DNA of 64,000 bases from Rugalucina vietnamica (lineage: Eukaryota > Mollusca > Bivalvia > Lucinida > Lucinidae): positions 28,736,278-28,800,277 of the forward strand of contig OZ024876.1 in the NCBI GenBank assembly GCA_964017185.1, given 5' to 3'. Both the position numbers and the translations under genes were made by a program. Below the pieces are notes generated by a model. It was not told the origin of the DNA and did not search any database. It saw only the letters and a list, made by a program, of their open reading frames with translations. The first letter of the stretch is position 1. Each line of letters opens with the position of its first letter. Of the stretch, positions 8,725-62,839 are shown one piece after another.

Positions 8725-8771
<47 letters not shown>

Positions 8772-12561: not shown

Positions 12562-13564
12562 ATGGTAATAGTAAGATTCGTCAAGTAGGCTTTAAGGGAT
12601 AGATCGTCCAGAAACAAAAGACAAACAATGTTTTATTACCAGAAGCGTCTGCTAACTGCCATATTTAACGTCGAGAAACTTCAACCTTTCCGTGTAGAAA
12701 CCGACTGTTAGCTTGTTAGCTAGGCAGATTAAGTCAATTTTCAATAAAAATCGTGCATTTAGTGAAACAAGCATGAAATTTGGCATGTAGGCTCAGAATG
12801 CCCAACTGTTTTGAAAAATATCGTTGTCCAGCCAAAAATTCAAAATGGCGGACAAAATGGCTGTCATTTTCAAAATGGCCGCCCTGAAAGACTACAGATC
12901 ATAGTTTGCTCTCTAAAACTTCACTGCATTGACTGATTTTCAGGTTTTTGATGTCAACGACCATGTTTAAGAACCCATTGAATCTAAATTTCCACTTAAT
13001 ATTCAAAATGGCGGACAAAATGGCGGAAATTTTCAAAATGGCCGCCACTGAAGACTTGAATTACAGTTTTTCATCTTACATTTCAGTGCATTGACCGATA
13101 TTGATGCTTTTGGTGTCTAAATGTATGTAAATGAACCAATAGAATATGAATATACACATAGTTTTCTTGTATTTATCATTTGCCATGACATATTTGTCAA
13201 ATGTAAAGCAAAAACCTCATCCTTTAATGAGCAAAATGCAGTTTATATGTAGCCGTCTGATAAAATATAATGATTTTAGTTGCCCTTAATTTTGTATGAA
13301 GTTGATTATTCCTTCTTTTAAAAACTTCACTACATTGACTGATTTGTTACGTTTTCGGTGTCAATGTCCATGATTAAGAGCCCATTGAATCTAAATGTTT
13401 ATTGATGATTTCTGACAAAATGGCGACCATTTTCAAATTTGACGCCACTGAAGACTTGAATGACAGTTTTTCATCTTACATTTCACTGTGTAAATGAACA
13501 TATAGAATATAAATATTTACATAGTTTTCTTGTATTTATCATTGGTCATGGCATACATGCCAAT

Positions 13565-13865
13565 ATATAGAGGATCTTACACGAGTGGTCATTTCATATG
13601 AAATTTATTCAACGAGCCTTTGGCGAGTTTAATAAATTTCATATGAAATTACCACGAGTGTAAGATTCGTTTTATCATATGACTTTTAAAATAGGATTTT
13701 ATCGCCTTCGAAGTGGACATATTTTCAATGAAAATTTACATTGTTGTTACGGACGTCGTCAATGACGTTACGTATTCCCGCAAAAGTGTTAATACACGTG
13801 TGGTCATACGATTTTTATGACATGACGTTATCCACTGGAAAACAGCGACGTCATATGATAAAAAG
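13565..13865. mobile_element. Palindromic MITE in the left arm only
   Basis: A roughly 44-bp-arm imperfect palindrome spans 13574-13666, with arms starting ATCTTACACGAGTGG and a short TTTGG loop. TTTTATCATATGAC at about 13669 is repeated inverted near 13851-13864. The right arm is uninterrupted at the matching place. Confidence 0.65.
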
Positions 13866-14556
13866 CAATAACATCAGCCTTTAATGTGCAAAATGCACTT
13901 TATATGGAGCCGTCTGATGAACATAACAATTTTAGTTGCATTTATTTTTGTATGAATTTGATATGAATATGTCAGGTGATTATATTTAATGATTATCTCT
14001 TTTATTTTTTAGCAATTAACACTATTAAAAATCAAAATGGTGGCCATCTTTTATCCATACAGGTACTTTACCTAATAAATTGTAATTAACCCTTTTGATT
14101 GTAAAATGGGACCGTTGTATAAATGAGATTGTTATTTTTTGCGTTTATCTTGTGAAAGGAGAGTGAAATCAGTCCTTCTTTTAAAATAAATGCACCATAA
14201 ATGTCTGTAATTTACAATTATTGTATGGATTTATGGTCACTTGAAATGCTGTCTGTAAGACAGGTGTAAGTATCAGTGCCATGTTTGTGGTAGTTGCGTG
14301 CATTGGATACACAATAAATGTAATGGCATGAAGGGGCTTTAAGGGCACAATGTGTCCTTGCCCTGATTTCAACTGTGCTTCATGCTTGGGCTTAGCTAGT
14401 CCTATGGATGTAACAGACAAAATGGAAGTGGAGTTTGGTGATGAAAAGAAACAGAGGGAGAACACCCATCAAGAAGCATCTAAAGAAGTTATGACGCCTT
14501 GGTTGGCGTCGAGGACCAATATGTCAAATAATGTGGAACATGTCACATAATTTTGC

Positions 14557-15021
14557 TATTTAGGGATTTGGTCTCTGTTGGTGGCTGTGATCTACTTTAA
14601 CCCGATAGCGGGTGTAGTCAACCTGCGTGAGAAGTGTCGTGTTTCATGCTTCAGACACTTGAACAATGCCTGTGACTACTCTGAACCATATTCAATGCCA
14701 TGGCAAGCAATGGTTCATTTGATTTGTAATGCTAAACAAAATGATGAAGCTAGGTCTTTCTCTCAAAGCTTTCAACTCTCGTACTTTGCACACTAACAGA
14801 ATGAGATGGTTTGGGTATGTCGTGTTTAACGATGGAAAGATTGTCCAAGTACGCAAACTGCACAGAAGAGACAATGCAGGCCAAAGAAAACTTGGGATGA
14901 ATTATTTCGAGATGGCAGAAAGAAACTTGGAATTGATTTAACCATCCTGAAAACCGGTCTGAACAGACGGGGGCATTTGCGGGGAAGACTTGTCAACCCT
15001 CATATGAGGAAAATGGACTAG
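14557..15021 (+). pseudogene. 3' remnant of a non-LTR retrotransposon reverse transcriptase
   Basis: Conceptual pieces in different frames match the end of LINE ORF2 proteins: an AMVHLICNAKQND segment (about 14700-14752), then NRMRWFGYVV (about 14797-14826), then PKKTWDELFRDGRKKLGID and GRLVNPHMRKMD up to a stop at 15019-15021. In related LINEs this order is ICNVK, RWFGHV, GRPKKTWDE near the C-terminus. Frameshifts separate the pieces and the RT core is missing, so it is dead. The same remnant lies inverted in the right arm (38911-39110 and 34196-34413), so it was part of the unit before the inverted duplication. Confidence 0.75.
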
Positions 15022-15290
15022 AAACTGGATATAATGATAGTATGATGATAAAATTAGACTCATGTTTTCAGACTTTTTCTAACCATATTCATGTTAGATG
15101 TATCAAATTTCTGTCACATCTAACAGTGATGTGCTTGTGCCCTGCTTGTGTATAGACAGACAATCTTTTTCTCTACACCTACACAATTTAATGGCAGAAA
15201 ATTGATACATCTAACCGGAATATGATTAGAAAGGCCTGAAAACAAAAATCTTATTCATCATCATAACATCATTAAATCCAGTTTATAGTC

Positions 15291-15440
15291 CATTTTCTTC
15301 TACTGAGGGTTGTAGCAACGATAAGTGTCCATCAACGACTTCTGTTCACCATGGACAATAGTCGTTGCGGCCGCAACGACTTCTGTCCACTAGCTAAATG
15401 GACAATAGTCGTTGAGCATGTAGATATAAAAATTATTTTC
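15291..15440. repeat. B'-type dyad block, left
   Basis: It contains repeated CAACGACTTCTGT and its inverse ACAGTAGTCGTTG-like forms, including a perfect palindrome around GTCGTTGCGGCCGCAACGAC with a NotI site. It matches 33990-34185 inverted. It is related to satellite B yet lies outside satellite A. Confidence 0.8.
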
Positions 15441-15559
15441 AACGACTACTGTTCATTTTCATAGAGCACTGCGAAAAATCCTGATTACTGTTAAAATCGT
15501 TCTGTAAGTACATACCTTGACACCCATTTAGCAAACAACATTCACAGATGGACTGACTT

Positions 15560-17300
15560 GTGTGTTTTCACGGTAAGGATCGGTTGACCTACTTTCCATG
15601 GTGCAGTGATTTTGCCTTATATCTTGACACTCAATTAATATATTTTCTTACTTCTTTCAGATTATGAGTAAATATGACCAGATCTTTGACCCCAATATAT
15701 AGGTCATTGTGACCTAATTTCACGGTTCAGTGATTTTGCCTTATATCTTGACACTCAATCAGTATATTTTCATACTTTTTTCAGATTATGAGTGTGTATG
15801 ACCAGACCTTTGACCCCAATATACTTATAGGTCACTGTGACCTTATTTCACGGTTCAGTGATTTTGCCTTATATCTCGGCACTCAACTGGTATATGAACA
15901 AACTTCTTTCACACTATGTTTGCGTATGACCAGGCCTTTGAACCCAATATACTTATAGGTCACTGTGACCAAATTTCACGGTTCAGTGATTTTGCCTTAT
16001 ATCTTGACACTCAATCAGTATATTTTCATACTTTTTTCAGATTATGAGTGTGTATGACCAGGCCTTTGACCCCAATATACTTATAGGTCACTGTGACCTT
16101 ATTTCACGGTTCAGTGATTTTGCCTTATATCTCGGCACTCAACTGGTATATGAACAAACTTCTTTCACACTATAATTGCGTATGACAAGACCTTTGACCC
16201 TTAAGTAGTCATAGGTCATTATGACCTAATTTCTCGGTTCAGTGATTTTACCTTATATCTCGACACTCAGGTGGTTTATGAACATACTGTTTTCATGATA
16301 TGTTTGCGTATGACAAGACCTTTGACCCTTAAAGTTAAGTAGTCCTAGGTCATTATGACCTAATTTCACGGTTCAGTGATTTTCCCTTGTATCTCGGCAC
16401 TCAATTGGTATATGAACATACTGTTTTCAGGATATGTTTGCGTATGACAAGACCTTTGACCCTGAAGTATTCCTAGGTCACTGTTACCTAATTTCATGGT
16501 TCAGTGATTTTGCCTTATATCACTCAATTAATATATTTTCTTACTTCTTTCAGATTATGAGTAAGTATGACCAGGCCTTTGAACCCAATATACTTATAGG
16601 TCACTGTGACCTAATTTCACGGTTCAGTGATTTCTTGACACTCAATTGGTTCATGACCAACTTCTTTCACACTTTGTTTGGGTATGACAAGACCTTTGAC
16701 CCTAAAGTAGTCATAGGTCATTATGACCTAATTTCACGGTTCAGTGATTTTCCCTTATATCTCGGCACTCAATTGGTATATGAACATACTTCTTTCATAA
16801 TATGTTTGCATATGACAAGACCTTTAACCGTTAAGTATTCCTGGGCCACTGTGACCTAATTTCATGGTTCAGTGACTTTGCCTTATATCTTAAACTCAGT
16901 TGATATCTTTTCATACTTCTTTCTGATTATAAATGAGTTTGACCAGACCTTTATTCCAAACATACTTATATGTCACTATGACCTAATTTCATGGTTCAGT
17001 GATTTTGCATTATATCTCAACACTCAATATGTATATGATCATATTTCTTTTACATTATGAGAAATTATGACTAGACCTTTGACCCTGAAGAACTTTTAGG
17101 TCATTGTGACCTTATTTCACAGTGAGTTTGCCTTGTATCTTGGCACGCATTTGGTATATGAACACTCTTCTTTCACAATATGAGTGAGACCTTTAAATCT
17201 TAGGTAGTTATAGTTAACTTTCATGGTTGAGTGATTTTGCCTTGTTGAATCAAGGAAAAGAGATGTATGAGCATAATGCTTTAGGTTACAGGTCAGGTTT
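15560..17300 (+). repeat. Satellite A array, left arm, main block
   Basis: There are about 13 units of roughly 120-130 bp. Landmarks per unit: TTTCACGGTTCAGTGATTTT, CCTTATATCTTGACACTCAA, TATGACCAGACCTTTGACCC and TATAGGTCACTGTGACCT. Perfect AGGTCACTGTGACCT palindromes occur at 15829-15843, 16084-16098 and about 16597-16611; most other units carry one or two changes. ORFs at 16434-17060 are by-products. Confidence 0.9.
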
Positions 17301-18060
17301 GGCCTTATGTTTGTCAAAGGTCAGAAGCAGTCGAGCGCGCTGTCCTGCGACAGCTCTTATTTTTTACAAAGAGTTCATATCTTGACAACAACTTATCATT
17401 AAACATTCATAGTTCATACACATTAGGTTCCCTGGGTCGGAGTCAGGGGCGGGGCTAGAGGGCAAAATCTAGAACTGCCTAAATATTGTTTTTAGCTCGA
17501 CTACACAAAGGGCATAGATTTGGTATTCACCGCGGTCGTCCACGTTCCCGTGCGCGTGCGCGTTACACTTGCGTTTAAGGTTTCTAGAATCTTGACAACA
17601 ACTCATCAGAAAGCATTGATACTTAGACTATTGATACCCTGTAGGGTTAGCTTTCATTTCATGGCATCGAGCCCCTAGGTCCAGTCCCGAGAGGGGGGTG
17701 CTGGAGGTTTAAAAATCTAACACACCATTATTGATGGCTTTTCTGTGATATAGTATTCTAGAAGTCTATATCTTTAAAATCTTTTATCAGTGGGCTTTCA
17801 TACTTGAACCATAGGTACCTTGTAGGGTTGAGTTTCATTGCATGGCATTAGATCCCTGGGTCCATGCCTGGGGGATGGAACTAGAGGTTAAAAACTAGGG
17901 CACTGTAAAAATGGATGTACTGCTGTGTAACTTGTACGAAGAAAGATATCTTACTTCATACAATTTAGGTTCCATGACATCGGACCTCTGGGGTAAAAAT
18001 CTAGAACTCGCTACAATATTTTTGGCGATTTATATCTAAATAGAAACAACTTACTAAGAT
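17301..18060. repeat. Insertion within the left satellite A array
   Basis: It begins after a GTCGAGCGCGCTGTCCTGCG segment and holds three degenerate units with CTTGACAACAACT, GGGTTAG or TTAGGTTCC, GGGCGGGGCTAGAGG and AAAATCTAGAAC. It is absent from the right arm. No coding frame. Confidence 0.6.
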
Positions 18061-18625
18061 GGTTGGTCATTCAACATTGTGACAATGGCTTGTGTGTCAT
18101 GACGGTAAGATTGCGTTGACCTACTTTTCGTGGTACAGTGATTTTACATCTTGACACACAATTAGTATATTTTCTTACTTCTTTCAGATTATGAGTAAGA
18201 ATGACCAGACCTTTGACCCAAAATATACTTATAGGTCAATGTGACCTAATTTCACGGCTCAGTGATTTTGCCCAGTATCTTGACACACAATTGATATATT
18301 TTCATATTACCTTCAGATTATGAGTGAGTATGACACCAATATACTTATTGATCACTGTGACCTTATTTCACGGTTCAGTGATTTTTCCTTATATCTAGAC
18401 ACTCAATTGATATATTTTCATACTTCCATCAGATGATGAGTGAGTATGACCAGACCTATGACCCCAATATACTTATAGGTCACTGTGACCTTATTTCACG
18501 ATTCAGTGCTTTTGCCTTATATCTCCGCACTCAATTGGTATTTTTTCATACTTCTTTCAGATTGTGAGTGAGAATGACCAGACCTTTGACCCAAATATAC
18601 TTACAGGTATAGGTCACTGTGATCA
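18061..18625 (+). repeat. Satellite A array, left arm, second block
   Basis: It restarts with the same leader as the first block (GACGGTAAGATTGCGTTGAC; compare 15560-15610), then has four units. A perfect AGGTCACTGTGACCT lies at 18477-18491. The last unit is cut inside its receptor palindrome, where satellite B begins. Confidence 0.85.
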
Positions 18626-19837
18626 ACGTAACGACTCCTATGAACAGTTGTCGTTGAAAGCTCAACCGGTTCTGTCCATCATGTACAAAAACATTTGAAC
18701 TTGTCTCATACTAGTTCCGAACGCCACGATTAATTGTTATAAGATAGATTTTTTTAACAGGAACTCTTACTGTGTTACGATTGACTGATTTATATGATTT
18801 TATCTGTCGTGAACAGAACTCGTTGAAAACGTAACGACTTCTGTCTACTATGAACAGTTGTCGTTGAAGCTTCAACTGGTTCTGTCCATCATGTACAAAA
18901 GCCTTTGAACTTGCCTCATACCATTTCAGAACGCCACGATTCATTGATTTAAGATATATTTCTGTATTAGGAACTTTAATTGTTAAAAGATTGACTGACT
19001 AATGTGATTTCATCTGTCGTGAACAGAAGTCGTTGACAACGTAAAGACTTCAGTCTGCTGTGAACAGTTGTCGTTGTAAACTCAACCGGTTCTGTCCATA
19101 ATGAACACAAATCTTTGAACATATCTCATACTAGTTAAGAAAGCCACGATTTGTTGTTTTTAGATAGATTTTTGTATCAGGAACTTAAATTGATATTAGA
19201 TTGACTGACTTATATGATTTCATCGTTCGTGAACAGAAGTCGTTGACAACGTAACGACTTCTGTCTTGTGACCAGTTGTCGTTGAAAACTCCACTGGTTC
19301 TGTCCTGTCCATCATGTACAAAATTTTTAAATTTGTCTCATGCTTGTTCAGAAAGAACATGATTACTTGGTTTAAGATATATTCGTATATCATGAATTTT
19401 CATCGTTATAAGATTGACTGATTTCTATGATTTCATCTGTCGTGAACAGAAGTCGTTGACAACGTAACGACTTCTGTCTGCTGTGAACAGTTGTCGTTGA
19501 AAACTCAACCGGTTCTGTCCATAATGAACACAAATCTTTGAACATATCTCATACTAGTTAAGAAAGCCACGATTTGATGTTTTTAGATAGATTTGTGTAT
19601 CAGGAACTTAAATTGATATCAGATTGACTGACTTATATGATTTCATCGTTCGTGAACAGAAGTCGTTGACAACGTAACGACTTCTGTCTTGTGAACAGTT
19701 GTCGTTGAAAACTCAACTGGTTCTGTCCTGTCCATCATGTACAAAATTTTTAAATTTGTCTCATGCTTGTTCAGAAAGAACATGATTACTTGGTTTAAGA
19801 TATATTCGTGTATCAAGAATTTTCATCGTTATAAGAT
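18626..19837 (+). repeat. Satellite B array, left arm, first block
   Basis: There are about six units of 200-210 bp. Landmarks: GAACAGAAGTCGTTGACAAC, GTAACGACTTCTGTCT, GTGAACAGTTGTCGTTGAAA, CTCAACCGGTTCTGTCCATC, GAAAGCCACGATTAGTTGTT. Interrupted at 19837 by a solo LTR. Confidence 0.92.
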
Positions 19838-20867
19838 TGTGATGAAGAGAGTTTTTAATTTGTCAAAAGCCATAACTTGTTTAAATCTGTTACTCGTACG
19901 TACCGGTACCCGATGTCGATCCCGTCGAATTATTGATAAATAAAAAGGCCGGTATCGCGGAAGTAGTTTGAAATGGCGCATTTTAGTTAAGGGTATCACA
20001 GACGATTTTATGTCTTTAAGCTAACAAATAAAATAATTAATATTGGTGGCAAAAGTATGCATTTCGAGTATTGAAGGATAGATTTGAATATTTGTTAATT
20101 GGGAGATTTATTTTGCATTTAGGAAATGATAGATTTAATGACTAGAAAATGTGGACTACCCCATAGGTAATAATGGACTGAACTTTGGGGGTATATAAGG
20201 AGAGCGAACAGTGTGAATCACGTCTATGTCGGTTTGAAGTCGAGGAGATCAGCTGCTCATTAGTATTGCACTAAGAGTAGAAAGAGTAAGTTGTCTAGCA
20301 TTGCGCTAACAACAAGCCGTATTCGAGATAGTCGAGTTAGTTGTTATGTGAGATAGAGTATTTGGTGGTGTGAAGTCAGAGAAACTTCATTGCTTACTAG
20401 TATTGCACTAGGAGCATTTAGGTTGTTTCAGAACGTGGTTCTGGAATTTGTGTTGTTCAGAAGACAGAGGGTCGTTCTGAATCAAGGGTAAATTGCATTG
20501 GTTGAATTATTTATTGTATTTTCAAAATCATTGCAAATCATTGGGAAATCATTTGTTTTAAAATAAGTTGATTATCGAAATCATATTTATGCATAAATCG
20601 AATCATTTGGCAAAGCAGCCTGAGGAAAATTACTTATAGCCAAAAGGCAATTCATGTTTGAACCGCTCGATAAGCTACGTTGTTACATTTTGGTTGCAGC
20701 GGTGGGATAAAAGAGTTGAAAAACCCACTCGTTGCTTCGATGTTACATTTTGGTGGCAGCGGTGGGATAAAAGAGTTGAGAAACCCACTGGTTGCTTCTA
20801 TGTTACATTTTGGTGGCAGCGGTGGGATAAAAGAGTTGAGAAACCCGCTCGTTGCTTCTATGTTACA
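19838..20867 (+). mobile_element. Solo LTR inserted in satellite B, with a triplicated LTR-end/primer-site segment
   Basis: It starts TGTGATGAAG and ends TGTTACA. AGAT flanks both sides (19834-19837 and 20868-20871) and the satellite B unit resumes exactly after it, so this is a clean insertion with a 4-bp duplication (5 bp if the end is TGTTAC). A TATA box, GTATATAAGG, is at 20191-20200. The last 180 bp are three 60-bp tandem copies, each starting TTTTGGTGGCAGCGGTGGGA (first copy GGTTGC), which looks like an LTR end plus tRNA primer-binding site, and each ending TGTTACA. Confidence 0.85.
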
Positions 20868-23800
20868 AGATTGACTGATTTCTATGATTTCATCTGTCGT
20901 GAACAGAAGTCGTTGACAACGTAACGACTTCTGTCTGCTGTGAACAGTTGTCGTTGAAAACTCAACCGGTTCTGTCCATCATGTACACAAACCTTTGACC
21001 TTGACTCATACTCGTTCAGAAAGCCACGATTAGTTGTTTTAAGATAGATTTGTGTATCAGGAACTTTAATTGATATTAGATTGACTGGCTTATATGATTT
21101 CATCTTTCGTCAACAGAAGTCGTCGACAACGTAACAACTTCTGTCTGCTATGAACAGTTATCGTTGAAAACTCAACTGGTTCTGTCCATCATGTGCAAAA
21201 AAACTTGAAATTTGTCTCATGCTTGTTCAGAAAGAACACGATTACTTGGTTTAAGATATATTCGTGTATAAAGAATTTTCATCGTTATAATTGTCGTTGA
21301 AAACTCAACCGGTTCTGTCCATCATGTACACAAACCTTTGAACTTGTCTCATACTAGTTCAGAAAGCCACGATTAGTTGTTTTAAGATAGATTTGTGTAT
21401 CAGGAACCTTAATTGATATTAGATTGACTGATTTCTATGATTTCATCTGTCGTGAACAGAAGTCGTTGGCAACGTAACGACTTCTGTCTGCTGTGAATAG
21501 TTGTCGCTGAAAACTCAACTGGTTCTGTCCACCATGTACAAAAAACTTTAAATTTGTCTCATGCTTGTTCAGAAAGAACACGGTTACTTGGTTTACGATA
21601 TACTCGTGTATGAAGAGTTTTCATCGTTATAATTGTTGTTGAAAACTCAACCGGTTCTGTCCATCATGTACAAAAACCTTTGAACTTGTCTCATACTATA
21701 TAGTTCAGAAAGCCACGATTAGTTGTTTTAAGATAGATTTGTGTATCAGGAACTTTAATTGATATTAGATTGAATGATTTCTATGATTTCATCTGTTGTG
21801 AACAGAAGTCGTTGACAACGTAACGACTTCTGTCTGCTGTGAACAGTTGTCGTTGAAAACTCAACCGGTTCTACCCATCATGAACACAAAACTTTGAACA
21901 TGCCTCATACTAGTTCAGAAAGCCACGATTTGTTGTTTTTAGATAGATTTGTGTATCAGGAACTTTAATTGTTATAAGATTGACATACTTATGTGATTTC
22001 ATCTGTCGTGAACAGAAGTCGTTGACAACGTAACGACTTCTGTCTGCTGTGAACAGTTGCCGTTGAAAACTCAACCGGTTCTGTCCATCATGTACTAAAA
22101 ACCGTTGAACTTGTTTCATACCAGTTTAGAAAGCCACGACTAGTTGTTTTAAGATAGATTTTTGTATCAGGAACTTTAACTATGATTTCATCTGTCGTGA
22201 ACAGAAGTCGTTGACAACGTTACGACTTCTGTCTGCTGTGAATAGTTGTCGTTGAAAACTCAACCGGTTCTGTCCATCATGTACAAAAACCTTTGAAAAT
22301 GTCTCATACTAGTTCAGAAAGCCACGATTTGTTGTTTTTAGATAGATTTGTGTATCAGGAACTTTAATTGTTATAAGATTGACATACTTATGTGATTTCA
22401 TCTGTCGTGAACAGAAGTCGTTGACAACGTAACGACTTCTGTCTGTTGTGAACAGTTGCCGTTGAAAACTCAACCGGTTCTGTCCATGTACTAAAGACCG
22501 TTGAACTTTTCTTATACCAGTTTAGAAAGCCACGGCTAGTTGTTTTAAGATAGATTTGTGTATCAGGAACTTTAATTGTTATTAGATTGACTGATTTCTA
22601 TGATTTCATCTGTCGTGAACAGAAGTCGTTGACAACGTTACGACTTCTGTCTGCTGTGAATAGTTGTCGTTGAAAACTCAACCGGTTCTGTCCATCATGT
22701 ACAAAAACCTTTGACAATGTCTCATACTAGTTCAGAAAGCCACGATTTGTTGCTTTTAGAAAGATTTGTGTATCAGGAACTTAAGTTGTTGAAAGGTTGA
22801 CTGACTAATGTGATTTCATCTGTCGTGAACAGAAGTCGTTGACAACGTAACGACTTCTGTCTGCTGTGAACAGTTGTCGTTGAAAACTCAACCGGTTCTG
22901 TCTATCATGAACAAAAATCTTTCAACATGTCTTATACTAGTTCAGAATGCCACGATTTGTTGTTTTTAGATAGATTTGTGTATTAGGAACTTTAATTGTT
23001 ATTAGATTCACTTACTAATGTGATTTCATCTGTCGTGAACAGAAGTCGTTGACAACGTAACGACTTCTGTCTGCTGTGAACAGTTCTCGTTGAAAACTCA
23101 ACCGGTTCTGTCCATCATGTACAAAAACCTTTAAAAACTTGTCTCATACTCGTTCAGAAAGCCACGATTAGTTGTTTTAAGATAGATTTGTGAATCAGGA
23201 ACTTTAATTGATATTAGATTGACCAACTTATATGATGTCATCTTTCGTTAACAGAAATCGTTGACAACGCAACGAATTATGTCTGCTGTGAACAGTTGCC
23301 GTTGAAAACTCAATCGGTTCTGTCCATCATGTACTAAAAACCGTTGAACTTGTCTCATACCAGTTTAGAAAGCCACGACTAGTTGTTTTAAGATAGATTT
23401 TTGTATCAGGAACTTTAACTGTTATTAGATTGGCTGACTTAATATATGATTTCATCTGTCGTGAACAGAAGTCGTTGACAACATAACGACTTCTGTCTGC
23501 TGTGAATAATTGTCGATGAAAACTCAACCGGTTCTGTCCATCATATACAAAAACATTTGAACATGTCTCATACTAGTTAAGAAAGCCACGATTTGTTGTT
23601 TTTAGAAAGATTTGTGTATCAGGAACTTAAGTTGTTAAAAGATTGACTGACTGATGTGATTTCATCTGTCGTGAACAGAAGTCGTTGACAACGTAACGAC
23701 TTCTGTCTGCTGTGAACAGTTGTCGTTGAAAACTCAACTGGTTCTGTCCATCATGTACAAAAACCTTTGAACTTGTCTCATACTCGTTCAGAAAGCCACG

Positions 23801-25247
23801 ATTAGTTGTTTTAAGATAGATTTGTGAATCAGGAACTTAAAATGATATTATATTGACTGACTTATATGATGTCATCTTTCGTGAACAGAAGTCGTTGACA
23901 AGGTAACGACTTTTGTCTGCTGTGAACAGTTGTCGTTGAAAACTCAACTGGTTCTGTCCATCATGTACAAAAAAACTTTAAATTTGTCTCATGCTTGTTC
24001 AGAAAGAACACGAATACTTGGTTTAAGATATATTCCTGTATCAAGAATATTCATCAATATAAGACTGACTGATTTCTATGATTTCATCTCTCGTGAACAG
24101 AAGTCGTTGACAACGTAACGACTTCTGTCTGCTGTGAACAGTTGTCGATGAAAACGCAACCGGTTCTGTCCATCATTTACAAAAACCCTTGGACTTGTCT
24201 ATTACTAGTTCCAAATGCCACGATTAGTTGTTATAAGACAGATTTATGCATGAGGAACTTAAATTGTCATACTACTGATTGATTTATATGATTTCATCTG
24301 TCGTGAACAGAACTCGTTGACAACGTTACGACTTCTGTCTGCTGTGAACAGTTGTCGTTGAAAACACAACCGGTTCTGTCAATCATGTACTAAAAACCTT
24401 TGAACTTGTCTAATACCAGTAAAGAAAGCTTAGATTAGTTGTTTTAAGATAGATTTTTGTATCAGGAACTTTAGCTGTAATTAGATTGGCTGACTTATAT
24501 GATTTCATCTGTCGTGAACAGAAGTCGTTGACAACGTTACGACTTCTGTCTGCTGTGAATAGTTGTCGTTGAAAACTCAACCGGTTCTGTCCATCATTTA
24601 CAAAAACATTTGAACATGTCTCATACTAGTTCAGAAAGCCACGATTTGTTGTTTTTAGAAAGATTTTGTGTATCAGTGACTTAAGTTGTTAAAAGATTGA
24701 CTGACTAATGTGATTTTCACTGTCGTGAACAGAAGTCGTTGACAAAGTAACGACTTCTGTCTTCTGTGAACATTTGTCGTTGAAAACTGAACTGGTTTTG
24801 TCCATCATGAACACAAATCTTTGAACATGTCTCATACTAGTTCAGAAAGCCAAGATTTTTTTGTTTTTAGATAGATTTGTCTATCAGGAACTTTAATTGT
24901 TAGTAGATTGACTTACTTGTGTGAATTCATCTGTCGTGAACAGAAGTCGTTTACAACGTAACGACTTCTATCTGCTTTGAACAGTTGTCGTTGGAAACTC
25001 AACTGGTTCTGTCCATCATGTACTAAAGACCGTTGAAGTTGTCTCATACCAGTTCAGAAAGCCACGATTAGTTGTTTTGAGACAGATTTTTGTATCAGGA
25101 ACTTTATTTGTTATTAGATTGGCTGACTTATATGATTTCATCTATCGTGAAGAGAAGTCGTTGACAACGTAACGACTTCTGTCTGCTGTGAACAGTTGTC
25201 GTTGAAAACTCAACCGGTTCTGTCCATCATGTACTAAAGACCGTTGA
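20868..25247 (+). repeat. Satellite B array, left arm, main block
   Basis: There are about 21 units of mostly 210 bp, one shortened to about 188 bp near 22190. Two subfamilies alternate in places: one with GCCACGATTAGTTGTTTTAA and one with GAACACGATTACTTGGTTTA. Most units carry AACCGGTT, some AACTGGTT. The array stops at 25247 and continues inverted. Short ORFs across it are repeat by-products. Confidence 0.93.
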
Positions 25248-30450: not shown

Positions 30451-30840
30451 GATACACAAAGCTAATTTTCTTTTTATTTTATACAACACACGGACATTTT
30501 CCAAATCACAAGGCAGGCGGTGAAAATGCAAAAACCAAAAATTGTTGAAAACACATTGTTCCTCACTTTCTAACTAAGAAAATGTTTTCGTTAATAAATT
30601 ACGGAGTTATAGGCGATTGAATTTCTGAAGTGAAACACATTTAATGACGTCAAGTAAATGGAAACGTCAGAAGTAATCCAAGCTCTACAGTGAAGATATA
30701 GGCTGATACCAGTCACTAGTAACTTTTGATATCAGTGAGATTTGATATCAGTGAAATTTCATATCAATGAAAATACCAATTTTATCAAGTTTTGATATAC
30801 ACTGGTTTTCACTGTAATGTATAAAATAAAAATCAGAATT
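30451..30840. other. Spacer between right satellites B and A
   Basis: AT-rich sequence with three TTTGATATCAGTGA-type repeats near 30725-30800. The left arm has no clear match here. No gene. Confidence 0.5.
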
Positions 30841-31171
30841 ACTGAAACATGAAATAAGGTTATAGTGACCTTTACGTTCAAAGGTTTGGTAACACTCATT
30901 CATAATCTGAAAGAAGTCTGAAGATTTACTGATAGCGTGTTAAGATATAAGACAAAATCACTTAACCATGAAATTAGGTCACAGGGACGTAAGACTAGTT
31001 TGTTGTCAAATGTCGGGTCATACTTACTCATATTGTGAAAGATGTATGCCCATATACTAATTGAGTGGTGTGATATAAGGCAAAATCACTGAATCATGAA
31101 ATTAAGTCACAGTGACGTAGGATTACTTGTAGGTCAAAGGTCTGCTCATACACCAACATATAGTGAAAGGA

Positions 31172-31312
31172 AAGAAGTATAGCTGCTCATTCGGCTTACG
31201 ATGTTTTCATCGTATAAGTACCTGATTATTAATTTAGTTTTTTCCCACCTCGGTTTTTGGAGTGGGAATCATTTTCTGATTGCGCCTTTTCCTGATCTTT
31301 GCCTACTTGTAC
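31172..31312 (-). repeat. Family D dispersed repeat inside satellite A
   Basis: On the minus strand it reads GTAGGCAAAGATCAGGAAAA, GGCGCAATCAGAAAATGATT, CCACTCCAAAAACCGAGGTG and ends near GAATGAGCAGCT. The same block occurs at 45575-45715, 50440-50585 and truncated at 63960-64000. Confidence 0.75.
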
Positions 31313-33848
31313 TCTATCATATACCAGTTGAGTGCCGAGATACAAGGCAAAATCACTGAACCGTGAAAAAAGGTCACAGTGACCTGTAAGTAATTTAGGG
31401 CCAAATGTCTGGTCATACTCACTCATAATCTGAATATCGACTGCTCTGACCTTTGTCAAACATAGGGCCAAACTCGACCTGTAACCCAAAGCAATATGCT
31501 CATACATCTTTTGCCTTGATGTTATACAGAACAAAATCACTCAACCATGAGAGTTAACTACAACTTATAACTACTGAAGGTTTAAACGTCTCAATCATAT
31601 TGTACATCAAGTATATTAATACACCAACTGAGTGCCGAGATACAAGGCAAAATCACTGAACCGTGAAATAAGCTCACACTGACCTATAAGTACTTTAGGG
31701 TCAAAGGTCTTATCATACTAATTCATAATAATAAAGACGTATGAAAATATATCGAGTGTCAAGATATAAGGCAAAGTCACTGAAGCATGAAATTAGGTCA
31801 CAATGACCCAGAAATACTTTAGGGTCAAAGGTCTTGTCATACGCAAACATAATGTAAAAGAAATATGTTCATATACCAAAAGAAAACCGAGATAAAAATG
31901 CAAAATCACTGAACCATGTAATCAGGTCACAATGACCTAGGACTACTTTAGGGTCAAAGGTCTTGTCATACACAAACATAGAGTGAAAGAATTATGTTCA
32001 TAAACCAATTGAGTGCAAAGATATAAGGTAAAATCACTGAACCATGAAATTAGGTCACAGTGACCTATAAGTATATTGTGGTCAAAGGTCTGTTCATACT
32101 CACTCATAATCTGAAGGAAGCAAGGGAATATCATAATTGAGTGTCAAGATGTAAGGCAAAATCACTGAAACATGAAATTAGGTCACACTGACCCATAAGT
32201 AGAATGGGGTCAAAGGTCTAGTCATACTAACTCATAATCTGAAAGAAGTACGAAAATATACTAATTGAGTGTCAAGACATAAGGTAAAATTACTGAACCG
32301 TGACATTAGGTTACAGTGACCTATAAGTATATTGGGGTCAAAGCTCTGCTAATACTCACTCATAATCTGAAAGAAGTATGAAAATATACTAATTGAGTGT
32401 CAAAATATAAGGCAAAATCACTGAACCGTGAAATTAGGTCACAGTGACCTATAAGTTTATTGGGGTCAAAGGTCAGGTCATACTCACTCATAATCTGAAA
32501 GAAGTATGAAAATATACTAATTGAGTGTCAAGATATAAGGCAAAATCACTGAACCGTGAAATAAGGTCACAGTGACCTATAAGTATATTGGGGGGTCAAA
32601 GCTCTGGTCATACTCACTCATAATCTGAAAGAAGTATAAAAATATACTAATTGAGTGTCAAGATATAAGGCAAAATCACTGAACCGTGAAATTAGGTCAC
32701 AGTGACCTATAAGTTTATTGGGATCAAAGGTAAGGTCATACTCACTCATAATCTGAAAGAAGTATGAAAATATACTAATTCAGTGTCAAGATATAAGGCA
32801 AAATCACTGAACCGTGAAATTAGGTCACTGTGACCTATAAGTTTATTGGGATCGAAGGTAAGGTCATACTGACTCATAATCTGAAAGAAGTATAAGATAT
32901 ACTAATTCAATGTCAAAATATAAGGCAAAATCACTGAACCGTGAAATAAGGTCACATTGACCTATAAGTGTATTGGGTGTCAAAGGTCTGGTCATACATA
33001 CTCATAATCAGAAAGAAGTATGAAAATATACTAATTGAGTGTCAAGATATAAGGCAAAATCACTGAACCGTGAAATTAGGTCACATTGACCTATAAGTTT
33101 ATTGAGGTCAAAGGTCAGGTCATACATACTAATAATCTAAAAGAAGTATGAAAATATACTAATTGAGTGTCAAGATGTAAGGCAAAATCACTGAACCGTG
33201 AGATTAGGTCACAGTGACCTATAAGTATATTAGGGGTCAAAGCTATGGCCATACTCACTCATAATCTGAAAGAAGTATAAAAATATACTAATTGAGTGTC
33301 AAGATATAAGGCAAAATCACTGAACTGTGAAATTAGGTCACAGTGACCTATAAGTTTATTGGGGTCAAAGGTAAGGTCATACTCACTCATAATCTGAAAG
33401 AAGTATGAAAATATACTAATTCAGTGTCAAGATATAAGGCAAAATCACTGAACCGTGAAATTAGGTCACAGTGACCTATAAGTTTATTGGGGTCAAAGGT
33501 AATGTCATACTCACTCATAATCTGAAAGAAGTATGAACATATACTAATTCAGTGTCAAGATATAAGGCAAAATCACTGAACCATGAAATTAGGTCACAGT
33601 GACCTATAAGTATATTGGGGGTCAAAGCTCTGGTCATACTCACTCATAATCTGAAATAAGTATGAAAATATACTAATTGAGTGTCAAGATATAAGGCAAA
33701 ATCACTGAACCGTGAAATAAGGTCATAGTGACCTATAAGTATATTGGGGGTCAAAGCTCTGGCCACACTCACTCATAATCTGAAAGAAGTATGAACATAT
33801 ACTAATTGAGTGTCAAGATATAAGGCAAAATCACTGAACCGTGAAATT

Positions 33849-33893
33849 AGGTCACAGTGACCTATAAGTATATTGGGGTCAAAGGTCAGGTCA
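33849..33893 (+). promoter_or_regulatory. Example of the paired receptor-type motifs in a satellite A unit: IR3 plus DR1
   Basis: AGGTCACAGTGACCT at 33849-33863 is a perfect inverted repeat of AGGTCA with a 3-bp spacer. At 33876-33888 lies GGGTCAAAGGTCA, a direct repeat with 1-bp spacing, followed at once by GGTCA. IR3 is the classical estrogen-receptor site; DR1 is bound by RXR, HNF4 and PPAR-type receptors. These are sequence matches only; binding is not shown. Confidence 0.6.
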
Positions 33894-33989
33894 TACATAC
33901 TCATAATCTGAAAGAAGTATGAAAATATACTAATTATGTGTCAAGATATAAGGCAAAATCACTGCATCTTACTCAAGTTTCTGGATTTT

Positions 33990-34185
33990 TCAGAAATGGA
34001 CAGTTATCGTTGACACTGCAGATCATATCTACCACAGCAACGACTTCTGTCTACAATGGACAGAAACGGTTGAAAAATCAACGATTACTGTCTAGTGGAC
34101 AGAAGTCGTTGCGGCCGCAACGACTTTTGTTCATGGTGAACAGAAGTCGTTGATGGACACTTATCGTTGCTACAAGGGTTGAACT
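33990..34185. repeat. B'-type dyad block, right
   Basis: Inverted counterpart of 15291-15440. It contains GTCGTTGCGGCCGCAACGAC, ACAGAAGTCGTTGATGGACA and an ACGGTTGAAAAATCAACGAT dyad. It separates satellite A from the outer arm. Confidence 0.8.
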
Positions 34186-34413
34186 TTCTGCCAAGTCTTC
34201 CTCGCAAATGCCGTTCAGACCGGTTTTGAGGGTCGATAAAGCTAAATCAAATCCATTCCAAGTTTCTTTCTGCTATCTTGCAATACTTCATCCCAAGTTG
34301 CATTATCTCTTTTGTGCAATTATCTTTCCATCGCAACACTCCACATGCCCAAACCGTGCAAAGTGCAGCATCAAAAGTTTGGATGTCATGCTTTTAGAGA
34401 AAAAGCTAGCTTT
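34183..34413 (-). repeat. Outer right arm, inner piece (LINE remnant)
   Basis: It is the inverse of about 14770-15000 in the left arm (shared TTCAGACCGGTTTT, TTCCAAGTTTCTTTCTGC, CATCCCAAGTT). It is cut off at 34413 by the LINE insertion and continues at 38911. Confidence 0.8.
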
Positions 34414-34859
34414 ATCATTTTCTTTTTTTTTAATTTAACAGCATTTCAATCAATACACACAATATCTATATTATGTTATGATAATTTGTATAATGTATAT
34501 GGTTATACTATAAAGTCACTATACAAAAGGAGCCATGGATGAGTACTAAAGAATATTTAATCATGGTCATGGTGAAAGATTGTTAAGCAATAATTTTCAC
34601 ATGCATGTTCCCTTTTGTAAGTAACATCCTTCCCATTAAGTATGATGTCTAAACAAAAACCAATATACATAATAAAAATATGAAAATTTATGTATGCATG
34701 TGGAAGGTTGAAAAAAAAACAACAACAATGAACCTTCAGGCAGAGCTGAATAATAACCTTTCAGTTATAGTTTACTTAGAATTGAGGTTTTGTTCAAAAC
34801 ATACATTTTAGAAATTTAAATAGTCAGTCAACACATAGAAAGCATACACATATTAAATT

Positions 34860-36239
34860 TTATTTTTCATCCATGAAGTAATGATAAATAGAAGACCACA
34901 TTCCTAGAAACTTATCATATGTATTGTTTATTTTAGCTATATACATTTCGTTCTTGAATTTGACTTTAACATATGATTCAAAGCCTTTTATATTAAGAGT
35001 TTTATGATAAAATTTATTTTTATAGATGTAGTATTTCGCCAATACTATTAGGTAATTAAGCAATGAACACTTTGAAAAAGCTGAATAAATGATATCTTTA
35101 TCACTAAGGTTGACCTCTGTATTTATTCTTTCGCCTACCCATTTTTTGAAATTGTTCCAAAATACCTTAACTGTATCACATGTACACAGCAGATGATGTA
35201 TATTTTCAATATCTTTCTGACAAAAGGAGCATAAATTATTTTCTGCTTTATTAATTTTATATAGAAAGGAATTAGTCACCAATATTTTATTGTTAATTTT
35301 GAATTGAAAATCTCTTAATTTTACTTCATTTATATATTTTAAACTTGAATTGACTTTTCTTTGTTCCTCATTTGTTATTGGACCAACTTCTTCATTCCAC
35401 TTGTTATTTGCAATTTGCTCCCTCACTGGTATTAATTTATCATATATTGCTCTACATCCCCTTTTGTCTTTAAGTATTAATTTTAGGTATAGATTTATCT
35501 GTACATTATATTTCAAAATTTTGCACTTGCCATTATGGTCATTTATTGTTTCCAGCCAGGTCTTAGGTATTTTTCTTATTAATCTTTGGTAATCAAGGAA
35601 AGTTCCCTTTAGACTGTATGTTCTTTGTAACTCTTCAAAATTATACAAATGTCCGTTTATATCAACTATATCGAAAATGTTCCTTATTCCTTTATCAAAC
35701 CAATCTTTAAAAATAAAAGTTTCATTGTTAAGTGAAAAATTTGAATTACACCATATAGGCGAGCAGAGGATATCCTCAATTTCTTGTGGTTTAACAGCTA
35801 TGCAGAATAAATATAAACTATATGTTAAGTCCTTCCAAAATGGATTAGATAACTTTTTAGATATACTTTTAAAATGACAATCTCCTAAACTAACTATTTT
35901 ACTGAAATCTATACCTGATAACATACTCCAATTATCTGTTTCCGAATTTAAAATTATACGTCTAAGCCATGTTATCTTTAGTGAGTTTATAAATGCGTGT
36001 ATTTCAACCATTCTCAATCCTCCTGCCTCTATATCTTTTATCATTTGCTTCCTACTAATTCTATCAGGTCCTTTATTCCATAAAATTTTGAAGAACATTC
36101 TCTCTAGGTTCTTAATTAACTCTCCTGGTGGATTGGGTAAAGCTAGGAATAAATATGCAAATTTAGAGAACATTAAATATTTTATTACTGTGATTCTACC
36201 AATTAGTGTTAGTTTTCTTCTTGACCAAATGCTAATCAT
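34860..36239 (-). pseudogene. LINE ORF2, C-terminal part
   Basis: An open frame of 459 codons continues the reverse transcriptase thumb and C-terminal region (WSRRKLTLIGRITVIK at the start is typical of Tx1/L1-type ORF2). Near the end is a Cys/His cluster, CSFCQKDIENIHHLLCTC, followed by VFWNNFKKW, the usual C-terminal zinc-knuckle-like motif of these elements. It is separated from the preceding RT frame by a one-frame slip next to an eight-base T run at 36247-36254. Confidence 0.85.
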
Positions 36240-36243
36240 ACCT

Positions 36244-37017
36244 TTAACTTTTTTTTATAACATTATCTAGATTGTGGTCCCAAATATCAAAAACTTCTGG
36301 GGAAAAAACTACACCTAATATTTTTAAAGGTTTCTGTTCCCAATCAATACTAAATTCTTTACACAGTATCTTAGATGACTTACACATCGATCCTATCCAT
36401 AAAGCTTTAGTTTTATCTAAATTAACATTTAAACCAGACATCTGGTAGAACTTTTGTAAAATAACTAATGCTTGTTTTAGTGATGTTTCTGATCCATCCA
36501 AAAACATTTGCGTGTCATCGGCATATTGACTTAATTTAAATTCCATGTTATTTATTTTAATTCCTTTAACATCTTTTGATTTCCGAAACATCATTCCTAA
36601 AACTTCCACGCACAAAATAAAAATATATGGGGATATGGGATCACCCTGTCTACAACCGCGTTTTAAAAGGAAGAAATCAGACATAAAACCATTTTGGAGA
36701 ATACAAGATTCAACACCAGTTTGAAACAATTTTACCCAACGCTGAATCGAAGGTCCAAAGTTAAAATAATTTAAAACTTTATGGATGAATTTCCACGAAA
36801 TTGAATCGAAGGCTTGTTGGAAATCAATAGAGAGCAGTAAACCTGGTATTTCTTGCTTTTTTGTTTCAAATAAAACATCATACACTAACCTTATATTCTC
36901 TCCAATAAATCTACCTGTTATGAATCCTTTTTGATCCTGATTTATTAATTTATTTAAAACGGTTTTTAGTCGATTAGCTATTGCTGATGACATTAATTTA
37001 TATATGACATTTAACAA
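36244..37017 (-). pseudogene. LINE ORF2, reverse transcriptase catalytic part
   Basis: The 257-codon frame carries the RT palm: KGFITGRFIGENIRL, then LLSIDFQQAFDSISW with the first catalytic Asp, GCRQGDPISPYIF, and SQYADDTQMF with the catalytic YADD box. All three catalytic aspartates are present. It overlaps the upstream frame at a seven-base T run (about 37034-37040) where the expected WRPISLLN-type motif is broken by a frameshift. Confidence 0.88.
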
Positions 37018-37648
37018 AGAAATCGGTCGCCAATTTTTTTAAAATGTTTCTGGCTTTATTTGGTTTTGGAAGACATGTTATAATACCCTGTTTTTGAGTA
37101 ACTGATAATAAACCATTTCTGTATGCATAATTTATAGATCTTAAAATATATTTTCCTAAATCAACCCAAAAGAATTTAAAAAACTCAGCAGTAAAACCGT
37201 CATTTCCCGGACTTTTAGAATTTTTCATATTCTTCAACGCTAATGTCAGTTCTTCGTATGTTAATTCTCCTTCTAAAGATTGAACTTCTTCGTTGTTAAG
37301 CTTGTTTTCATTTTCCCCAATCAATTCACAAATGGGGGTTTCATCAATTTGAATTTTTTCATCATACAGATTTTTATAATATTTTTTTTGAGTCTCTAAT
37401 ATATCCTGTGTTGTATAAACTTCCTCTCCGTTTTCATCTATTAAATTATTAATAACTTTTTCCTGATAATTCCTACTTTCAAGGTTTAAAAAATATTTTG
37501 TTGGCTTTTCACCTAAATCTTCATATCGACATCTTGATCTTAACATTACCCCTTCTAGTTTAACTTTTCTAATTTCCTGTAATTTTTCTTTTTTATCATT
37601 TAACACCAAAATGTCTTCCATAGATATACAGTTTAAATTTTTTTGCAC
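36998..37648 (-). pseudogene. LINE ORF2, region between endonuclease and RT
   Basis: The 216-codon frame includes RCRYEDLGEKPTKYFLNLE and KNMKNSKSPGNDGFTAEFFK, the conserved N-terminal RT motif in which SPG(N)DG leads into the fingers. It then runs out of frame at NILKKLATDF, where related proteins have NWRPISL, confirming a single slip at the T run. Confidence 0.85.
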
Positions 37649-37697
37649 ACGCTCCTCTATTTGCTTTATACTTTTCTCTAATTCTAGCTCTTGCTCA

Positions 37698-37940
37698 TTA
37701 TTCTTTTTTTTTATATGAACTGTATTTTATAGTTTCTCCCCTAATCATAAGTAAAATTGTTTCCAATAGCAGTTGATCATTTATGCTAAAACTATTTCCA
37801 TCTATTGTATCTTTATTGTTATTATTATTATTATTATTATTATCATTCTTCTTATTATTATTATTGTTGTTGTTGTTGTTATTCGTATTATCAGTACTGA
37901 CATCTTTTAAACGGTATCTATCTAAATTTTCATTTATCAC
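37698..37940 (-). pseudogene. LINE ORF2 linker with AAT/AAC microsatellite
   Basis: The frame gives VINENLDRYRLKD, then a long Asn tract from ATT/GTT repeats at 37817-37890 on the + strand, then a short LLLETILLMIRGETIKY segment. The microsatellite has expanded inside the coding region of the linker between endonuclease and RT. The frames on either side are also shifted. Confidence 0.7.
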
Positions 37941-38114
37941 CTGTTTAACCTTTTTAACATATGCTACATCCTTAAGTAAAGTGTTATTAAACTTCCAATA
38001 TCCCCGACCTTTTTCAGTATCAAAATTGATTTGTAGTTTTAAAAGTACCCCTGAGTGATCAGATCTATACCCTGGGATTATTTCACATGCATGCAGGAAG
38101 AAAAAAAAAAGTGA

Positions 38115-38744
38115 CTAATTAAAAAATAATCCAAACGTGCTTGCTTTTTTTTCTGGTTGCAATCTTCTCCAAGTAAACCCTTTCTTGTCTTCATTTAATA
38201 GCCTCCATGCATCCATATAATCCATATCTAAAAAACTAAGCACAACCGACCTGGCATTTGGATTATTTACTGATTTGTAGTTTTCTGTATCTTTATTAGG
38301 GTCTATAACCAAATTCCAATCGCCACAGATTATAACATTCTCATTGTCAAATTCATCAATTTTTTGTTTAAGGTTGTTATAAAACTGAGGTCTGTCTTCG
38401 TTTGGGCCATAAATATTTGCCAGCGTGAATTTTTGATTTTGCGTGGTTATTTCCAAAATAATATAGTTGCCGTTTGGATCTTTAATAACTTTTGTTACTT
38501 CCTGATCAAAGTTATTACTTATCAGAATCATTACTCCTCTTTGGTTACTTGACAATCCACTTAGGTAAATAGAATATCCCCATTCATTTTTTATAAAATT
38601 TTCCATCTTATTTTCTAAGTGTACATCTTGTAAACAAATAATGTTGTACTTTTTCTTCCTCAAATAATGAAAAACATCTCTTCGTTTTTGAGAACAGTTC
38701 AATCCCCTTGTGTTCTGACTATAAATGGTTATAAAATCAGCCAT
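38115..38744 (-). pseudogene. LINE ORF2, N-terminal apurinic/apyrimidinic endonuclease domain
   Basis: The 209-codon frame starts MADFITIYSQNTRGLN. Motifs in order: the SQNTRGLN strand; IICLQDVHLE, where most L1 elements have QETH, so Asp stands for the metal-binding Glu; TLANIYGPN; VIICGDWNLV with the catalytic Asp and Asn; and FTWRR near 190. The expected SRLDFFLIS motif is lost to a frameshift in an A-run just before the stop. The terminal SDH motif is recognisable in another frame around 38055-38065 (YRSDHSG). It would nick the target for target-primed reverse transcription; here it is broken. Confidence 0.87.
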
Positions 38745-38910
38745 TATCTAGTTTCATACCTTTCAATCTTGAAAAAATATTCAGCTCCACCGAAGGTACA
38801 TTGATGAGAGAAAGTACATAATATCCTGTGTAATTGAGACAAAATGCTGAAATATTACTCCAAAATGAACTAGAAAAAATCATTTTCCGGCTCTGGTCAT
38901 CATTTTCTTT

Positions 38911-40274
38911 GACATTACAAATCAAATGGACCACTGCCCTGCCATAACACTGGTGATGGTTTAGAGTAGTAACAGGCATGGCACAAGTCTCTGCAGCATA
39001 AAACATAACACTTCTCATACAGTCTGATTACACCTGCTATCGGGTCAGATGCGACAGTTTGCAGTTTACAAGGGGATGCAGTTGGCGCTACTTTCCTCAA
39101 ACTGATCTCCAGCGTGTAACAGCAGCCAGTTCACAGCCACCACAAGAGACCATATTCCTAAATAGCAATACTATGTGACCCGTTCCACCTTATTGGACAT
39201 ACTGGTCCTCGACGTCAACTAAGTCTGCAGGACTTCTATAGACGCTTCTTGATGGGTGTTCTCCCTCTGTTTCTTTTCATCACCAAACTCCACCTCCATG
39301 TTGTCTGTTCCATCCATAGGACTAGCTAAGCCCCAGCATGAAGCACAGTTGAAATCAGGGCAAGGACACATTGTGCCCTTCATGCCATTACATGTATTGT
39401 GTATCCAATACACGCAACTACCACAAAATTGGCACTGATACCTATACCTGTATTACAGACACCATTTCAAGTGACCATAAATCCATATATTCCATACAAT
39501 AATTGTCAAGTACAAAGGGTGTCATGGACATTTATGGTGCATTAATTTAAAAAGAAGGAATAATTTCACTTGTGTTACACAAGATAAGGCGCAAAAATAA
39601 CAATCCCATTGATACAATGGTCCCATTTTACAATCAAAATGGTGAATTGCCAGTTTTGAAGGAAAGTACCTGTATGGACAAAACATGGCAACCATTTTTA
39701 TTTTAATAGTGTAAATTGCTAAATACATTAAATGCAAAGAGATAATCATTAAATGTAATCACCTGATATATTCATATCCACTTAATACAAAAATAAAGGC
39801 AACTAAAATCATTATATTTTATCAGACGGCTGCATACAAAATGCAATTTGCACATTACATGCTGACGTTTTTGCTTTACATTTGACAAATATTTCATGGC
39901 AAATAATAAATACAAGAAAACTATGTGTATATTCATAATCTATAGGTTCCTTTACATACATTTAGACACCAAAAGCATCAAAATCGGTCAATGCACTGAA
40001 ATGTATGATGAAAAACTGTAATTCAAGCCTTCAATGGCGGCCATTTTGAAAATGGCCGCCATGTTGTCGGCCATTATGAATATTAAGTGGAAATTTAGAT
40101 TCAATGGGTTCTTAAACACGGACATTGACACCAAAAACCTAAAAATCAGTCAATGCAGTGAAGTTTTAGAGAGCAAACTATGATCTGTAGTCTTTCAGGG
40201 CATTCTGAGCCTACATGCCAAATTTCATGCTTGTTTCACTAAATGCACGATTGTTTCACTAATCTGCCTAGCTA
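38911..40274 (-). repeat. Outer right arm, outer piece
   Basis: The inverse of 12717-14740. It shares the LINE remnant (AMPVTTLNHH...HLICNVKEND on the minus strand), the CCCTGATTTCAACTGTGCTT block, the TTTTATCAGACGGCTGCATA block and the ATGGCGGCCATTTTGAAAAT block. Small ORFs at 39219-39413 (minus) and 14350-14550 (plus) are the same conserved stretch in the two arms. Confidence 0.85.
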
Positions 40275-40349
40275 TGTAGATACATGTACTAGATGTCGAT
40301 GAAAACATGCCTTTTTATGTGGTTAGAATGATTTGATAATTGTCATGCC

Positions 40350-62690: not shown

Positions 62691-62839
62691 AAAGGCCTAG
62701 GGAATTTAAGGCCTGATTTCGGCCTCATGTGTTGATAAAAAACTGAATTTTGAGATATTGAGGAGAAACGTATTGCAAATAGCAGGTATAGATCCCTGCT
62801 TATAAACGCTAGCACAACTATCACATTCAAATTACACAT

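Follow-up and report, generated by a model that had tools for sequence, protein, structure and literature searches.

Satellite DNA has been proposed to originate in foldback elements, whose long inverted arms carry tandem repeats. Tetris of Drosophila virilis is, in the excerpts of its description drawn on here (PMC4079207), a non-coding foldback element whose arms of up to 1,735 bp consist of a flanking domain and repeats of about 220 bp; a 37-bp stretch is common to the repeats and the flanking domain, the target duplications are 8–10 bp, and its authors suggest that tandem repeats bearing transposase sites may raise transposition. Internal repeats of about 210 bp are likewise described for one subfamily of Galileo (PMC3573991, also as excerpted). 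In the sources as far as they were consulted, the arms of the examples compared do not exceed about 1.7 kb, whereas the element that concerns us here carries 9–10 kb of two satellites in each arm. It lies within a 27.6-kb nested palindrome at positions 12717–40274 of a 64,000-nucleotide stretch (the window; contig C8, 28736278–28800277) of the genome of the bivalve Rugalucina vietnamica, which was searched across 1.09 Gb in 47 contigs. The 27.6-kb layout is very probably two nested transposons and not one element, and we are confident that the two are unrelated inverted-repeat DNA transposons, the inner of which belongs to a dispersed, giant, non-autonomous foldback-like family. Such a family shows one route by which satellite DNA is carried around a genome.

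An earlier note, made from the letters of the window alone, had described an outer arm, a satellite A and a satellite B that recur in inverted order, and self-BLAST of the window bears out this mirrored block order at the places given. The outer arm at 12881–14593 matches 39128–40201 (main pieces 84–92%), satellite A at 15585–18622 matches 30823–33966, and satellite B at 18624–25247 matches 25248–30464, all inverted, with the orientation switch at 25247/25248; the mirror is far above chance, with E-values down to 0. Tandem Repeats Finder gives periods of 128 and 210 bp for the two satellite units. The arms of 10.2–10.5 kb reported in that note proved to be a sum over the arms of two different elements, those of the inner element alone being 9–10 kb long, satellite A and then satellite B, mirrored. 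The features are as follows (a dot marks those without strand).

12714–12716 (.), target duplication TGT of the outer element, left; partner at 40275–40277
12717–15310 (+), left part of the outer element, from the terminus TAGCTAGGCAGATTA, with a dyad block; 39 other loci, 20 copies compared
15306–15310 (.), target duplication AGGGT of the inner element, left; partner at 34175–34179, uninterrupted site in copy L026
15311–15393 (+), left terminal repeat of the inner element, starting TGTAGCAACGATAAG; identical to the right repeat at 81 of its 83 bases
15394–15584 (+), left subterminal region; with the terminal repeat, five motif copies at up to three mismatches
15585–17188 (+), satellite A, 128-bp unit, left arm
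17189–18116 (+), block X within satellite A, on one arm only; in all three copies that cover the point (on C2, C10 and C12)
18117–18622 (+), satellite A, left arm, continued
18624–19839 (+), satellite B, 210-bp unit, left arm
19840–20860 (.), block Y, a window-private insertion resembling a solo long terminal repeat (LTR); missing in all five copies compared
20861–25247 (+), satellite B, left arm to the centre
25248–30464 (-), satellite B, right arm, inverted
30465–30822 (.), block Z between satellites B and A, right; within unbroken alignments of the C2 and C12 copies
30823–33966 (-), satellite A, right arm, inverted; holds a repeat resembling a miniature inverted-repeat transposable element (MITE) at 31179–31312
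33967–34091 (-), right subterminal region; with the terminal repeat, four motif copies
34092–34174 (-), right terminal repeat of the inner element, ending CTTATCGTTGCTACA
34175–34179 (.), target duplication AGGGT, right
34180–34425 (+), middle part of the outer element
34426–38898 (-), long interspersed nuclear element (LINE), inserted separately; has frames for endonuclease and reverse transcriptase
34414–34425 (left) and 38899–38910 (right), 12-bp target duplication ATCATTTTCTTT of the LINE, within the outer element
38899–40274 (+), right part of the outer element up to its terminus
40275–40277 (.), target duplication TGT, right

The outer element (12717–40274 less its insertions) is a non-coding inverted-repeat transposon of about 4.2 kb with 3-bp target duplications. 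Searched with the sequence from 12717 onward, the genome gave 39 other loci, all matching from query base 1 (40 scored of 1815 loose candidates), and 20 copies, each fetched with about 9.5 kb inward, were compared. Window sequence runs in 18 of them to 15242–15312 and then passes directly to 34170–34175 and onward, this junction being lost in L020 and L023, and satellite A or B stands between the arms in none of the 20. Some of these copies have other insertions or deletions, and the right end of L017 is beyond the stretch fetched. The 19 copies with both ends found are 1.9–5.6 kb long, eight of them 4.1–4.2 kb, and a 3-bp target duplication flanks 17 of the 19 (exceptions L023 and L027) as well as the copy in the window (TGT/TGT). 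The copy L014 is a near-palindrome from end to end, with pieces at 84% and 79% and a centre at 75%, and it has no stop-to-stop frame longer than 95 amino acids. The outer ends to which the earlier note had pointed both carry TAGCTAGGCAGATTA, and the genome search with them that it had suggested did return multiple copies with target duplications. Those copies are satellite-free, however, and their duplications are of 3 bp; the ends (TAGCTAGGCAGATT) are thus those of a real transposon, about 4.2 kb in length. Two side observations concern the surroundings of outer copies: satellite A adjoins the copy L027 at 6948–9391, outside the outer element, and the MITE-like repeat of about 134 bp seen at 31179–31312 also occurs in the flanks of L009, L015, L016, L021, L025 and L028, as well as in L030 and L031.

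The inner element, 15311–34174, is 18.9 kb long and sits inside the outer one between copies of the 5-bp duplication AGGGT; an outer-element copy without it reads CTACTAAGGGTTGAAC at the insertion point. Its edges recur throughout the genome. The left edge (15303–15584) was found at 39 other loci at 98–100% identity (40 scored of 709 candidates) and the right edge (33967–34181) at 39 other loci at 99–100% (40 scored of 794), identities that come from the 40 best-scoring candidates per edge and as such may not represent the full divergence of the family. The match at the left edge starts at query base 8 or 9 in 34 of the 39 loci (base 9 being 15311) and slightly earlier in the other five. At up to two mismatches, and with the window included, 135 left and 149 right ends were counted genome-wide, the reversed-pattern controls giving 0. 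When the first 100 of the left and the first 100 of the right ends were paired, 68 left ends had a facing right end within 60 kb and none a non-facing one; one right end was used twice, leaving 67 distinct, and the paired-end lengths span 4.0–51.3 kb with a median of 17.6 kb, a pair of 4.0 kb lying at C15:14961264–14965268. Exact target duplications lie outside TGTAG...CTACA in 10 of 12 full elements (five of 5 bp, four of 6 bp and one of 7 bp). A duplication of 7–8 bp with ends GTAGC...GCTAC had also been considered for this family and was dropped after the 12 copies were lined up. In one element (C11:47788797–47809099, L051) the right flank reads AGTCGTTGATGGACAC, which resembles a second terminus; two ends may be adjacent here, or the element may have been rearranged.

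These observations bear directly on the first of the interpretations offered in the earlier note, a giant non-autonomous element with compound inverted ends. A single 27.6-kb non-autonomous transposon of this kind would account for outer ends and satellites all being mirrored around roughly one centre. It is, however, ruled out by the satellite-free outer copies with 3-bp duplications, and the uninterrupted site, together with a satellite block that has its own termini, its own duplication and copies at unrelated sites, leaves it very improbable. The descriptions giant and non-autonomous are retained, for the inner element; the single compound element is not, the satellites having their own ends, duplications and copies.

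Mirrored order is likewise a property of the family. The C12 copy is colinear, end to end, with the reversed inner element, with gaps at array-length differences or insertions, and so is the C2 copy, of which a short stretch at the left end was fetched separately (L058); in three further copies colinearity holds for satellite B to either side of the centre. These five loci had been chosen for having satellite B on both strands close together (40 scored of 1115). As a query from the left arm could not test the right arm, exact matches were also listed: an exact 61-bp satellite B core occurs at 815 places, 422 forward and 393 reverse, with controls at 0. The first 100 of these 815 matches in contig order (C1 and C2) form 15 clusters, of which 11 run from plus to minus, where shuffling strands within clusters yields 1.9 on average and never more than 8. 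Monomers of the left-arm type were seen at 0.56–0.76 of the length in elements on C13, C7 and C15, and inverted monomers at 0.34–0.42 of the length in C3:52835193. The exact centre of the palindrome in the window is unlike the centre common to five other copies. The centre pattern is a poor marker, with 12 matches at 0–1 mismatch and 456 at up to three, ordinary monomers included.

The earlier note had offered, as its second interpretation, a local inverted duplication fixed long ago. The arms do differ by 10–20%, as such an origin would predict, but copies with these ends, this mirrored order and target duplications are found at many loci; local duplication fails on these dispersed copies, and it is contradicted by the relationships of the monomers as well, so that there is scarcely any probability left for it. 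Of 228 satellite B monomers from six elements, 174 had their nearest neighbour in the corresponding arm of a different element and 42 elsewhere in their own arm, while 12 had it in an opposite arm, where about 111 would be expected at random; for satellite A, in four elements, 85 of 87 nearest neighbours lay in the same arm (about 44 expected). Because monomers are closest to the same arm of other copies and not to the opposite arm, formation of the palindrome came first, before dispersal; its arms then grew apart, and the element has moved and spread as one unit.

Long palindromes are known to cause errors in assembly. Here the arms are not identical, block X stands on one arm only in several copies, and matching target duplications surround both the inner and the outer element; the view taken in the earlier note that this is no assembly fold-back is thus upheld, and we regard an artefact as wholly improbable. 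The insertions that the note had listed as private to one arm fared differently from one another. The LINE at 34426–38898 is indeed private to the window copy, being absent from the outer copies compared (a protein search with its reverse transcriptase returned 2510 relatives), and the solo-LTR-like block Y is missing in all five inner copies compared; the segment 17189–18116, in contrast, stands at the same point in all three inner copies that cover it, and block X therefore belongs to the family. Block Y itself, which lies in satellite B, ends with 60-bp repeats (3.2 copies by Tandem Repeats Finder), which we take to resemble a retrotransposon primer-binding region.

The ends of the inner element and one of its two satellites have a short sequence in common. 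With up to two mismatches allowed, the whole window holds 83 copies of a 16-bp motif, CAACGACTTCTGTTCA: three lie in the left edge, four in the right edge and the other 76 in satellite B, with none elsewhere; at up to three mismatches the left edge has five, the right edge four and satellite B 102 of 111. Nine sites at three mismatches in the two edges compare with at most one in edge shuffles. The edge sites alternate in strand, with steps of 19, 22, 25 and 41 on the left and 58, 22 and 19 on the right, and the satellite B consensus holds four sites (-, +, -, +) with steps of 22, 19 and 22. Furthermore, satellite B aligns to the terminal repeat over 59 gapless bases with 45 identities (score 48, the maximum of 1000 shuffles being 26), while satellite A, from which the motif is absent, reaches a score of 16, close to the 15.3 that its shuffles average.

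Given this arrangement, the best reading of the sequence is of a giant, foldback-like and non-autonomous transposon as the inner element, with satellite B as an amplified, putative transposase-recognition region. It is reasonable to postulate that a transposase supplied in trans would recognise the terminal clusters of the motif, that satellite B may have arisen when such a cluster was amplified in tandem, that it may still offer many extra transposase sites, and that cut-and-paste transposition would move the whole palindrome, carrying both satellites to new places. Alternatively, the satellites may be passive cargo, grown by replication slippage or unequal exchange and without a role in transposition, a possibility that we take seriously while placing it below even chances. 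Array lengths vary, satellite A does not carry the terminal motif, and conservation of the motif within satellite B is only mildly raised, all of which speaks for passive arrays; satellite B, on the other hand, repeats the terminal motif on the same alternating strands and with the 19- and 22-base steps of the ends, which speaks against them.

Several observations weigh against the reading of the inner element as a palindromic foldback-like transposon with amplified recognition sites. Of the 15 clusters of satellite B, four depart from the simple mirrored order, three being of a single orientation (one of which ends with the matches listed) and one reading + - + -; several elements are rearranged, and in four the switch comes at about 0.3–0.4 of the length. 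Two of the 12 full elements (C2:16098073 and C11:47788797) have no target duplication, and the length of the duplication varies within the family, from 5 to 7 bp. Within satellite B, conservation is only mildly higher in the motif columns (0.965) than in the remaining ones (0.916), and since 8 of 205 circular shifts, counting the real one, do as well, motif conservation lends weak support. As satellite A does not contain the motif, the binding-site idea leaves this satellite unexplained. Last, no transposase or autonomous relative turned up, no search by terminus having been completed; in the window copy, 17189–20860 holds short frames only, and the long frames inside the inner element lie in satellites.

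The remainder of the window contains other repeats. A 45-bp tandem array occupies 50762–54089 (73.9 copies, 94% matches) and is open in several frames, for instance a 665-amino-acid frame of a 15-amino-acid repeat at 51755–53752, and a 25-bp array occupies 57167–58639 (58.7 copies, 88% matches), both by Tandem Repeats Finder. A dispersed repeat of about 270 bp has four copies in the window at 74–78% (12290–12560, 43910–44190, 55692–55981 and 61985–62234). Further self-inverted stretches lie at 62691–63277 and 59141–59377 (67% and 69%), short arrays of related 16-bp units stand on opposite strands at 42729–42852 and 44436–44548, and a motif resembling a short interspersed nuclear element is found at 40370. 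Rfam at gathering thresholds and ARAGORN gave no matches in the window.

The locus offers a general caution, namely that what looks in an assembly like one long nested palindrome can be a pair of ordinary insertions that came to lie one within the other by chance. With many copies, near-identical termini, and a motif common to the ends and one satellite and not the other, the inner family would also allow two propositions to be tested in one genome, that amplified transposase-binding sites start a satellite and that mirrored satellite palindromes move intact. A giant satellite-armed element of this kind is not found among the titles and abstract openings listed by searches of a collection of open-licence papers, nor is one described in the excerpted text of PMC8268682, PMC6431247, PMC10294476, PMC12628747 or PMC5139131.

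The outer element shares its duplication length with superfamilies that make 3-bp duplications (e.g. Zator), such duplications flanking 17 of its 19 two-ended copies and the window copy. For the inner element the duplications agree less readily with any one group: in the excerpts consulted, the Mutator superfamily, which has been proposed for Tetris, makes duplications of about 8–10 bp, where all ten here are 5–7 bp, and the P superfamily, with Galileo, makes 7 bp, a length seen in one of the ten. Ginger1 makes 4 bp and Ginger2 4–5 bp, compared with 5 bp in five of ten, 6 in four and 7 in one, and the 6 bp of Polinton/Maverick are seen in four of ten. The transposase that moves the inner element might instead be of the integrase type, as in the Ginger, IS3EU or IS481 kind, and not a Mutator- or P-type enzyme as proposed for other foldbacks. 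Its ends TGTAG...CTACA do agree with the 5' TGTNR ends of Ginger (PMC2836005, in part) and with the TGT...ACA of IS481EU, and duplications of 5–7 bp are near those of Ginger2 (4–5 bp) and Polinton (6 bp) and below the 8–10 bp given in the Tetris excerpts (PMC4079207). They fit none of these exactly, however, no CCGG is found in the ten inner duplications, and no integrase gene turned up, none having been searched for; we consider this origin somewhat unlikely. Ginger1, as excerpted (PMC2836005), differs further in its 4-bp CCGG/CCGT duplications, inverted repeats of 40–270 bp, length of about 2.6–7 kb and integrase-like transposase. A broader proposition can be made, that a group with TGTAG...CTACA ends and 5–7-bp duplications fits no superfamily compared, that kilobase satellite arrays serve as its inverted repeats, that satellite B is a working binding-site array, and that selection for mobility builds and spreads a satellite, the two satellites being dispersed genome-wide as one palindromic unit; taken as a whole, we think it unlikely.

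In structure, the inner element has long inverted arms with tandem repeats and, at many loci, target duplications (10 of 12), and it works like a foldback element. Elements of the TCAST type from Tribolium are similar in having satellite sequence within terminal inverted repeats, and differ, in the part of PMC3411249 consulted, in their inverted repeats of about 269 bp, length of up to 1,181 bp, 3-bp ACT duplication and single monomers in place of arrays. Galileo, of the P superfamily in Drosophila, is similarly foldback-like, with long arms containing internal tandem repeats and many non-autonomous copies, and differs in arms of 18 bp to about 1.26 kb and a known transposase (PMC3573991, as excerpted). 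Tetris is the nearest in plan, so far as the excerpts of PMC4079207 describe it. Its arms of up to 1,735 bp contain one repeat family, whereas those of the inner element extend over 9–10 kb and two satellites; its duplications are 8–10 bp and not 5–7, and the three structurally complete copies reported for it compare with at least 67 paired ones in the inner family. Tetris is non-coding, as the inner element appears to be from the frames of the window copy; both have inverted arms in which a flanking domain and tandem repeats share sequence, and Tetris is thought to have seeded satellite arrays (PMC4079207), a further likeness to the inner element described here.

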